In this document: piece after piece, positions 7,392 to 9,778 of the stretch | How positions within the stretch are numbered: position 1 is the first letter of the stretch | How the letters are laid out: each line of letters begins with the position of its first letter | NCBI GenBank assembly: GCA_937872225.1 | Contig: CALMRZ010000095.1 | Span: forward strand, 1-33,284 | Direction: 5' to 3' | DNA length: 33,284 nucleotides | Source of the DNA: an uncultured Spirochaetota bacterium | Lineage (GTDB): Bacteria > Spirochaetota > UBA4802 > UBA5550 | Made by a program: the position numbers and the translations under genes | Notes under the pieces: generated by a model | What the model saw: the letters and a program-made list of their open reading frames with translations, nothing else | Database searches by the model: none | Told to the model about the DNA's origin: nothing

Positions 7392-8375
7392 CTAAAACAA
7401 ACACCCGACCCCGATCCCGAAATCGAGGAACTGTATCCCCCTCGCCCTTTCGATGATGCAGTAGTAGCCGGCATGGGCGTTGAGGCTGACATGACTGCCG
7501 AACAGGTAGCCGACCGAGATGCCGGGATTCACCAGCGGCTCAAAGACTTTTTTCCCGGTTTCATTGATGTGATTATAGGACACGCCGCACCCCAGGAAGG
7601 GCGAGATGAGGAAATTGTTAATATTGAAGATATACTTGAACTGGGCCATGACCGGAACGATCGTGGCGTAAACATGGCTGTCTTTTTTGTGGAGGCGGAA
7701 GAATCCCGTTTTGAGGCCGATGAAGCAATTATCGACAACGGCGCCGCCGGTAGCTGAAACGTTATAGCCCCGCCCTGCCTTTGTTCCCAGGAATGCGACC
7801 GGCAGCAGGTATCCGCCGTTTATCTCGACAAAGCCCCGTACCCGCGCAGATGCCTTTACCCCTGATTCGGCGCCGCCCGTTCCCCGGGGCTCGTCCTTAT
7901 TGATTTTCTTCCCAAGGGAAACAGCGAGCCTGTCAGCGAGCTTCTGTGACGCGTCAAGGACCCCCTCCTTCTCGTCCATGGAGGCCGAATCCGCGAAGAT
8001 TATCATACCGGTGACCACATCGACTATCTTTACCGTTACCAGATACCGCCCGGCACAGGTCACATCCCCGACAACAACGTAATCCGCGGCCACCATCTTC
8101 CCCTGGGACACGGCGCAGCCGTCGTCGCGGCATACGCGGTCCCTCCCCAGCTCGAAAAGGACCCTGGAAATGTTCTTCCGCTCCAGCACGTGGAGCTCTT
8201 TCTTGTAGAGGGCTATCTCGATCTTGTTGCGCAGGGCCTTGGCGTAGGAATCGGCGATGTTATTGGCGGAAAACTCCAGCACCGCCACCCGCTTTTCCGG
8301 GAAGGCATACGTTTTAACCAGCGCCGCGTGAGCAATGAGCGCGGCGGCGCACAGGAATAACACCTTTTTGTTCAT
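7392..8375 (-). CDS. CsgG-like domain fused to an outer-membrane beta-barrel
   Basis: A 327-aa exported protein. The signal peptide is about residues 1-24 (cleavage after KTYA). Residues about 28-155 show the CsgG/LpoB/TolB-N-like fold: RVAVLEF at the first strand, a helix with ALRNKIEIAL, HVLERKNISRVL, ADYVVVGDV, and a VTVKIVDVVTGMIIFADS strand pair. After a linker, about 180-327 alternates hydrophobic and polar residues with many aromatics and Gly and ends in Phe, as in small outer-membrane barrels. No exact homologue is recognised. It is the third gene of the sigma operon, 3 nt after the probable anti-sigma gene, whose own periplasmic part has the same fold. A role in sensing or shaping the envelope under sigma control is inferred. 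Confidence 0.75.
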   Translation of the reverse strand: MNKKVLFLCAAALIAHAALVKTYAFPEKRVAVLEFSANNIADSYAKALRNKIEIALYKKELHVLERKNISRVLFELGRDRVCRDDGCAVSQGKMVAADYVVVGDVTCAGRYLVTVKIVDVVTGMIIFADSASMDEKEGVLDASQKLADRLAVSLGKKINKDEPRGTGGAESGVKASARVRGFVEINGGYLLPVAFLGTKAGRGYNVSATGGAVVDNCFIGLKTGFFRLHKKDSHVYATIVPVMAQFKYIFNINNFLISPFLGCGVSYNHINETGKKVFEPLVNPGISVGYLFGSHVSLNAHAGYYCIIERARGIQFLDFGIGVGCLF

Positions 8376-8378
8376 TCG

Positions 8379-9110
8379 TTACTGGATGTTGCCTGCGACA
8401 GATTGGGCGAACCTTACGGCCAGATCACGAAGACCTTCGGCCGTGGCGGATTCTTCCGAGGCAGCGAAGATTATCCGTCTCGTTCGCCTTTCGGTAAGTC
8501 TTATCGAAAAAAGGTATTGTCTGTCAAGCTTTTCTACTGACCCGGTGAGGACCAGGCCGGCGCGGTCCGGTACAGCGGAAACCGCTATCCTGTCACGGCC
8601 CTTCAGCCGTATAATTTCGCTTCGCATGGCATCGGAAACCTGCGCAACCAGCGTTCCATCGGCGCCGTTATTCTCGAGGCCGTAAAACTGTAGCCGGTAC
8701 CGGTACGCGATGGAGCTGTTCCCGCCGGTGACATCGCCGCTTTTCGCATCCGGTTCTGCCGCCGGTGCGGCCTTTTTCTCATGCTCCTCATAAACGGAAG
8801 GACTTTTTACCACAACATTCCCGACCAGCAGGTATCCGCCGGCGGCAACAGAGGAGACGACAACGGCCGAGGCCGTGAAAAAAAGAACGGCGCTCTGCAT
8901 GATGCTGAGGCCGATACCGAGTTTTTTCAGGAAAAAGTATAACGAAAGGATCATCCCGTAGAGGGGGGAATAGATCCCAAGCTTCTTCATAACGCTTACC
9001 AGGTTCTTCCTCTTCATCCGCATGGCCCGACGCTGAACGTCCCCGGACAATGGACTGGAAACCCGGTACCGGTCAAAGACACGCCGCATGAGGGCAATTT
9101 CATCTATCAT
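8379..9110 (-). CDS. Membrane protein, probable anti-sigma factor, with CsgG-like periplasmic domain
   Basis: A 243-aa membrane protein. The N-terminal 45 residues are cytoplasmic and basic, hydrophobic segments follow at about 48-62 and 72-97, and an Ala/Pro/Glu/Asp-rich linker (about 105-130) leads to a periplasmic domain at about 135-243. That domain has the order of the CsgG/TolB-N fold: a strand, a helix with AMRSEIIRL, a DRIAV strand, AGLVLTGSV, QYLFSIRLTERRTRRIIFA, and a final helix LRDLAVRFAQSVAG. It parallels the domain in the downstream gene. The start overlaps the sigma factor stop by 4 nt (ATGA), the classic arrangement for a cognate anti-sigma factor. There is no ZAS zinc motif, so anti-sigma function is inferred from context and topology. 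Confidence 0.7.
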   Translation of the reverse strand: MIDEIALMRRVFDRYRVSSPLSGDVQRRAMRMKRKNLVSVMKKLGIYSPLYGMILSLYFFLKKLGIGLSIMQSAVLFFTASAVVVSSVAAGGYLLVGNVVVKSPSVYEEHEKKAAPAAEPDAKSGDVTGGNSSIAYRYRLQFYGLENNGADGTLVAQVSDAMRSEIIRLKGRDRIAVSAVPDRAGLVLTGSVEKLDRQYLFSIRLTERRTRRIIFAASEESATAEGLRDLAVRFAQSVAGNIQ

Positions 9111-9736
9111 AACAGGTCCTCGATGTTGGTGATCCCTTTTTCATTGAGAAAGCCCCGGATGTTCTTCACGATCAATGAATAGCGGTACTCCGCCTGGCGT
9201 TTTGAAAAGCCCAGGTGCTGTCCCGCCAGCTCATAGGTCAGGTTCTGGACCGCTACCAGGTCAAAAAGTATCCGTTCAGGTTCGGTTAACCGGCCCACCG
9301 CCTCATCTATGATGATCCGCGTGTCCCTGAAGCCGTTGACGAAGGTCAGGGACACGTCTCCCAGGTAATTCTCGATGTCCTCGTCACTGGAAAATTTTTT
9401 CTTCTTCCGGTAGTAATTCATCAGGACATTATTGATGGTTCCGAAGAGCCATGCCCGGGTGTTATCGACCTCGTTCATCCTGGAATAAAAATGCATGAAC
9501 ACTTCCTGGGTCAGGTCGTCCGTGTCATCAGGGTTGGAGATTTTCGAGCAGATCGTGCCGTAGACCACCTGGTAGTAGTCAGCGTAGGCTTCGGTAAACT
9601 TTATTTTTTGTTTTTCAAGAAGAGGCATGACTCGCTGGTATGATATCCCGCCAATTCCCGCCGGAATTGCGCTTTCATTTTTCTCAACCGGAATATACAT
9701 CGAATATCTGCCGGATAAAGTCAATATCTTTTCCAT
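9107..9736 (-). CDS. RNA polymerase ECF-type sigma factor
   Basis: A sigma-70 family factor of the extracytoplasmic-function group with regions 2 and 4 only. From the start at 9736 (209 aa) region 2 covers about 47-113 (FTEAYADYYQVVY, then DDTDDLTQEVFMHFY in the 2.1-2.2 helix and TRAWLFGTINNVLMNYYRKKKK for 2.3-2.4). Region 4 covers about 148-200 (RLTEPERILFDLVAVQNLTYELAGQHLGFS, helix-turn-helix). The start is uncertain: GTG at 9772, ATG at 9769, 9745, 9736 and 9700 are in frame. I use 9736 because GGGAA precedes it and because a promoter candidate would start transcription near 9772. It heads a three-gene unit with the membrane protein and the CsgG-barrel protein. Confidence 0.9.
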   Translation of the reverse strand: MEKILTLSGRYSMYIPVEKNESAIPAGIGGISYQRVMPLLEKQKIKFTEAYADYYQVVYGTICSKISNPDDTDDLTQEVFMHFYSRMNEVDNTRAWLFGTINNVLMNYYRKKKKFSSDEDIENYLGDVSLTFVNGFRDTRIIIDEAVGRLTEPERILFDLVAVQNLTYELAGQHLGFSKRQAEYRYSLIVKNIRGFLNEKGITNIEDLL

Positions 9737-9778
9737 TACCGCCATTCCCGCACATCGTAGTCCAGACATCACCCTCTC

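Follow-up and report, generated by a model that had tools for sequence, protein, structure and literature searches.

How could a sigma factor regulator of the inner membrane be linked to a small outer-membrane barrel that bears a periplasmic domain similar to its own? This question is raised by three adjacent minus-strand genes of the window (the whole analysed stretch of 33,284 nucleotides from an uncultured Spirochaetota bacterium), which constitute one operon and encode an ECF sigma factor, a membrane protein and a predicted outer-membrane barrel protein. The analysis relied on 58 sigma-regulator loci classified from 46 draft genomes of this spirochaete order, many and perhaps all of which come from uncultured organisms.

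Gene order and parts of the regulator

The preliminary description had located an ECF sigma operon at positions 7392-9772, and all three ORFs do lie there on the minus strand. The sigma factor gene was recognized by its matches to TIGR02937 (E 6e-15), TIGR02985 (5e-15) and Sigma70_r2 (1e-8). Its longest ORF spans positions 9107-9772; since the relatives are 172-175 aa long, the start was placed at the ATG at 9628, so that the gene is likely to occupy positions 9107-9628 (minus strand). The 50 aligned members of the sigma family are 31-50% identical to the window sigma factor. The gene of the inner-membrane sigma regulator, a probable anti-sigma factor of 243 aa (positions 8379-9110, minus strand), begins with an ATG that overlaps the sigma stop codon (ATGA), the identical 4-nucleotide overlap being present in 26 of 28 operons. 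The gene of its partner, an outer-membrane protein of 327 aa (positions 7392-8375, minus strand), starts 3 nucleotides downstream of the regulator. When searched singly, the window regulator and partner gave only weak database matches. As to a shared ECF promoter, the regions upstream of 55 sigma genes yielded only A/T-rich words, which establish neither autoregulation nor a regulon.

The N-terminal region of the regulator, predicted to be cytoplasmic (residues 1-66, positions 8913-9110, minus strand), is common to paralogues with other sensor domains; its profile matches 53 loci, and it comprises three predicted helices (residues 2-14, 23-44 and 49-63 of the AlphaFold model, pLDDT 50-69). Then come a single transmembrane helix (residues 69-97, positions 8820-8906, minus strand), supported by hydropathy in 53 homologues and placed at residues 70-90 in the model, an uncertain linker and, at the C-terminus, a putatively periplasmic CsgG/TolB_N-like domain (residues 134-243, positions 8382-8711, minus strand). 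The latter is modelled at residues 140-241 as a beta-alpha-beta-beta-beta-alpha domain with pLDDT mostly 66-87, and its fold matches those of TolB (Z 12.1), PelC (Z 10.5) and CsgG (Z 9.4). The related FlgO model of Pfam matches 8 of 51 regulator homologues.

A regulator crossing the membrane once, with its C-terminal domain in the periplasm, is the most likely topology. Residues 45-66 form an amphipathic stretch, which contains Arg or Glu in several homologues, while the segment 69-97 is strongly hydrophobic throughout; besides, in 8 of 51 homologous regulators the same membrane segment is followed by a FecR domain (best match 4e-15; absent from the window regulator), and in known regulators this domain is located in the periplasm (PMC11637429, PMC12155086). 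A two-helix hairpin was judged unlikely on the same grounds, as it is in the FecR-class homologues that Arg or Glu occurs within the first hydrophobic segment. Such a hairpin is possible for some short paralogues, since many positive residues follow their membrane segment.

It had also been noted that the anti-sigma candidate has no zinc motif, and this is correct: HxxxCxxC is absent and the first 65 residues contain neither Cys nor His, which indicates that the regulator is not a zinc-type anti-sigma factor (ZAS). In Pfam, profile and PDB searches, the N-terminal region showed no homology to known anti-sigma domains, and the regulator profile retrieved no informative match among PDB sequences. 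A Pfam match of the regulator, as a single sequence, to the S8_pro-domain model was taken as chance.

The partner protein and the homology of the periplasmic domains

The partner begins with a signal peptide that has no lipobox (residues 1-24, ending in ...KTYA before a Phe; positions 8304-8375, minus strand), as read from the sequence and in agreement with the hydrophobic N-terminal leaders of its homologues. It is followed by a CsgG-like domain, predicted to be periplasmic (residues 26-156, positions 7908-8300, minus strand), which is assigned from its alignment to the regulator domain and from the homologues: the CsgG model of Pfam matches 22 of 25 family partners (best 3e-10), and the LpoB and TolB_N models also match many of them. 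Together with the fold matches of the regulator domain, this bears out the label "CsgG-like", under which both domains had been described initially. In the model, the partner domain has the order beta-alpha-insert-beta-beta-beta-alpha, the insert being helical and missing from the regulator domain.

The remaining part of the partner (residues 178-327, positions 7395-7844, minus strand), terminated by Phe, is predicted to be an eight-stranded outer-membrane beta-barrel. Eight long strands are present in its low-confidence model (mean pLDDT 52; this model and that of the regulator were each built on a three-sequence alignment), the best structural matches of which are OmpA, NspA and OprF (Z 16.9-18.3). 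The OprF barrel is also the best PDB match of the barrel profile (E 0.006), and the match of the window partner to the Pfam OMP_b-brl model falls below its cutoff. The placement of the partner among outer-membrane barrels is thus supported by prediction. The window partner has no match to TonB-receptor models of Pfam, and the STN model has none in the window proteins at E up to 10. About 5 of the 28 CsgG-class partners keep the CsgG domain and possess helical membrane segments in place of the barrel; these are L080:210-1190, L081:2808-3815, L082:2586-3593, L086:4144-5355 and L101:2800-3786.

The periplasmic domains of the two proteins (residues ~134-243 of the regulator and ~28-155 of the partner) are homologous. 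Taken alone, the two window sequences show only marginal similarity (E 0.012-0.023), so that family profiles were needed to establish this; to avoid circularity, the profiles were built from one protein set and searched against the other. An HMM derived from the barrel proteins only recognized 27 of 28 CsgG-class regulators and 0 of 25 others, the window regulator being matched with E 2e-7 and the best shuffled control with E 0.6. In the reverse search, the regulator-only profile matched all the partners (33/33). The hhalign comparison of the regulator and partner domains gave 99.1% (E 3.9e-19), with a score of 104.5 for the real profile pair and of 19.7 at most for column-shuffled profiles. 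The same strand order in both domains, which the preliminary description had read from short strings quoted from each, therefore reflects homology; the strings are present in the sequences, and the possibility that the domains belong to different folds, named there as a ground for refutation, is countered by the profiles as well as by the same order of elements in the models.

Domain matching across the order

The membrane regulator gene lies beside an ECF sigma gene in 57 of the 58 loci, the sigma gene being missing from one. Among the 29 regulators with a CsgG-like domain, 28 adjoin a gene of a CsgG-domain partner; the partner of the 29th is cut by the contig end, with a barrel fragment where it would be expected. 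Such a partner adjoins none of the 29 other regulators (Fisher p 2e-15, the loci not being independent; 13 genomes hold both classes). Conservation of the three genes together, proposed initially as a check, is thus found for the CsgG class. In 24 operons the partner gene follows downstream of that of the regulator, and 5 (including the one at the contig end) have it upstream of the sigma gene, which indicates that the link between regulator and partner has outlived rearrangement. This linkage is present in 20 genomes of several families. Members of the family complete with the N-terminal region were found only within this order; among the matches listed from the rest of the phylum, the C-terminal domain type alone is represented.

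The two domains also co-vary. In a partial Mantel test on 26 operons, the regulator-domain and partner-domain distances are correlated after removal of the sigma distances (r 0.43, p 0.0005); the control, for which the cytoplasmic N-terminal part of these regulators was used, gave a partial r of 0.11 (p 0.15). Such co-variation speaks for a connection of the two domains, short of showing their contact. Similarity is slightly greater between cognate than between non-cognate domains (mean rank 9.6 vs 13.5), a difference too weak to prove specific pairing. Only a small share of the genes in these genomes encode CsgG-domain proteins, mostly outside sigma operons; since barrel proteins with CsgG-like or Sm-like domains (for the latter, see below) are common there, the domains should have other uses too.

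Some loci depart from the usual arrangement. At L208:2869-5145 (minus strand) and L118:3319-5829 (plus strand), membrane-anchored proteins with FecR and CsgG-like domains adjoin a CsgG-domain partner, with neither the N-terminus of the sigma regulators nor a sigma gene; here a like pairing of domains may connect the inner and outer membranes independently of any sigma factor. At L121:3902-4701 (minus strand), a truncated sigma gene overlaps a CsgG-like fragment in another frame, which looks like an operon copy that has decayed or been misassembled.

The genome of the window itself encodes three more pairs of sigma factor and regulator, with only the N-terminal ~95 residues in common with the window regulator. 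Across the family, the regulators without a CsgG-like domain mostly end in a motif of ~42 residues, xLyNGxxixGaIisrG...T..G...iP...Ik.v, unrelated to the CsgG-like domain and called here "Sm-like" for convenience; eleven longer ones align over a FecR-like region. The barrels of this class adjacent to the regulator (7 loci; one more, at L212, lies further along) begin with the same kind of motif. Profile-profile comparison of the regulator motif with the N-terminal domain of these barrels gave 97.1% (E 7e-11), whereas the cross-class comparisons of CsgG-like and Sm-like domains gave 1.0% and 0.6%. A matching barrel is found nearby in only about 8 of 22 Sm-class regulators. Many barrels with fn3-like domains and an Sm-like motif at the N-terminus stand alone (for example, G000:C27:45016-46446, and 15 matches in the genome G009), and for this reason the regulators without an adjacent barrel could form pairs in trans. 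Longer operons occur at L111:614-5232 and L108:1663-4911 (both on the minus strand), with a sigma factor, a FecR+Sm regulator, a small Sm protein and a second FecR+Sm protein; that at L111 also has a barrel with Sm and fibronectin-like domains.

Possible mechanism and relation to known systems

We suppose, as the probable though by no means certain reading, that the three-gene unit serves TonB-independent cell-surface signalling through like-with-like periplasmic domains and a small barrel. The N-terminal cytoplasmic domain of the regulator would hold or stabilize the ECF sigma factor, while its CsgG/TolB_N-like domain, beyond a single membrane crossing, would be displayed to the periplasm. 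The partner would sit in the outer membrane by its eight-stranded barrel and expose the related CsgG-like domain to the same compartment, where the two domains could pair like with like. A change of the barrel, be it in ligand binding, amount or assembly, could then alter the regulator and hence the amount of free or active sigma factor. Direct pairing is favoured because, in two unrelated classes, the domain type of the neighbour can be told from that of the regulator, and because the domain distances co-vary. Thus, from the signal path through matching domains that had been put forward in the preliminary description, the matching has proved to be real, conserved and repeated with a second domain class, which fits the idea that the domains touch, and the passage of a signal keeps its place as a proposal.

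A broader version is conceivable, to which we would give somewhat less than an even chance: regulators and partners may swap whole periplasmic domain types together, so that domain identity serves as a pairing code in a modular TonB-independent signalling of spirochaetes, the same code being used by the FecR-CsgG proteins that lack the sigma-regulator domain to link inner and outer membrane.

The regulator domain could alternatively sense the state of assembly, joining or capping ring-like CsgG assemblies of unassembled or excess partner, in which case the circuit would control barrel or envelope quality. Relatives of this fold do form rings (CsgG, as well as PelC, whose dodecamers are among the best matches), the regulator domain is a shortened partner domain without the helical insert, as a capping subunit might be, and the partner and sigma genes share one operon. 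However, rings are only presumed for the window proteins, and the Sm-like class obeys the same matching rule with a domain that is not known to form rings here, so that we regard this explanation as unlikely. A rather lower probability still is assigned to a shared third partner, that is, to both domains binding one periplasmic ligand (a peptidoglycan synthase, a Tol-Pal-like protein or a glycan) instead of each other. LpoB and TolB, which have this fold, bind periplasmic proteins, and it is their models that match many of the partners; yet, with a common ligand, it is hard to see why regulators of two unrelated classes should each have a neighbour of their own class and why the domains should co-vary beyond the operon phylogeny. 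Finally, that the regulator domain was copied from the neighbouring gene and that the genes stay together with no signalling link is very improbable, since, for all the wide occurrence of the domain in these genomes and the slightly greater likeness of cognate domains, the linkage, which is seen in several families (20 genomes), has persisted through changes of gene order and the loss of the barrel part, and the same matching recurs with another, unrelated pair of domains.

Signalling through like-with-like domains, as proposed here, has close counterparts. It had been stated initially that no described system is built this way; however, the general design is known in principle, since homologous periplasmic domains are already paired in PupR/PupB, where the terminal STN subdomain of the sigma regulator binds its structural homologue, the signalling domain of the transducer (PMC7186176), and in FoxR/FoxA, which interact through STN-like domains (PMC11637429). 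Like FecI-FecR-FecA, PupI-PupR-PupB and FoxI-FoxR-FoxA, the window operon combines an ECF sigma gene with a membrane regulator and an outer-membrane barrel, and, like PupR/PupB and FoxR/FoxA, its regulator and barrel bear homologous periplasmic domains, which in those systems bind each other. Some of the paralogous regulators carry a FecR domain, as in FecIRA, whereas the window regulator does not. The transducer of the FecIRA type is TonB-dependent, with a plug and a 22-stranded barrel, in contrast to a partner of 327 aa with eight predicted strands and no plug, and the matching domains are STN there and CsgG/TolB_N-like or Sm-like here. The phylum differs as well, the present family being seen in one spirochaete order only.

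By sequence and fold, the window domains belong to the same superfamily as those of the CsgG, PelC, TolB_N, LpoB and FlgO proteins, which are secretion, envelope or flagellar proteins, none of them fused to a sigma regulator in the literature searched. The CsgG pore is a lipoprotein whose own hairpins form a multimeric barrel, in contrast to the window partner, which has no lipobox and a separate barrel with eight predicted transmembrane strands, as in OmpA-like barrels (according to the low-confidence model). No description of such an operon was found in the open-access literature searched; the use of CsgG-like and Sm-like domains appears to be undescribed, as do the small barrel and the two domain codes.

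Within the same phylum, the FecR-like protein LIC12756 of Leptospira is an anti-sigma factor that binds and inhibits its sigma factor LIC12757 (PMC12155086, PMC13118517). It resembles the window regulator in its short cytoplasmic N-terminal domain, one membrane helix and periplasmic sensor, although no N-terminal match to the present regulator family outside the order was among the matches listed. Unlike the window operon, this pair has no known outer-membrane transducer, and TonB receptors of Leptospira are noted to lack signalling extensions (PMC13118517). The operon described here thus suggests a specific kind of protein that could provide the outer-membrane input still missing for spirochaete sigma regulators such as those of Leptospira (PMC13118517), and the presence of two domain classes in one family provides a natural test of pairing specificity. 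More generally, the comparison suggests that the homologous-domain logic of iron-uptake signalling depends neither on TonB receptors nor on STN and has been rebuilt with other domains.
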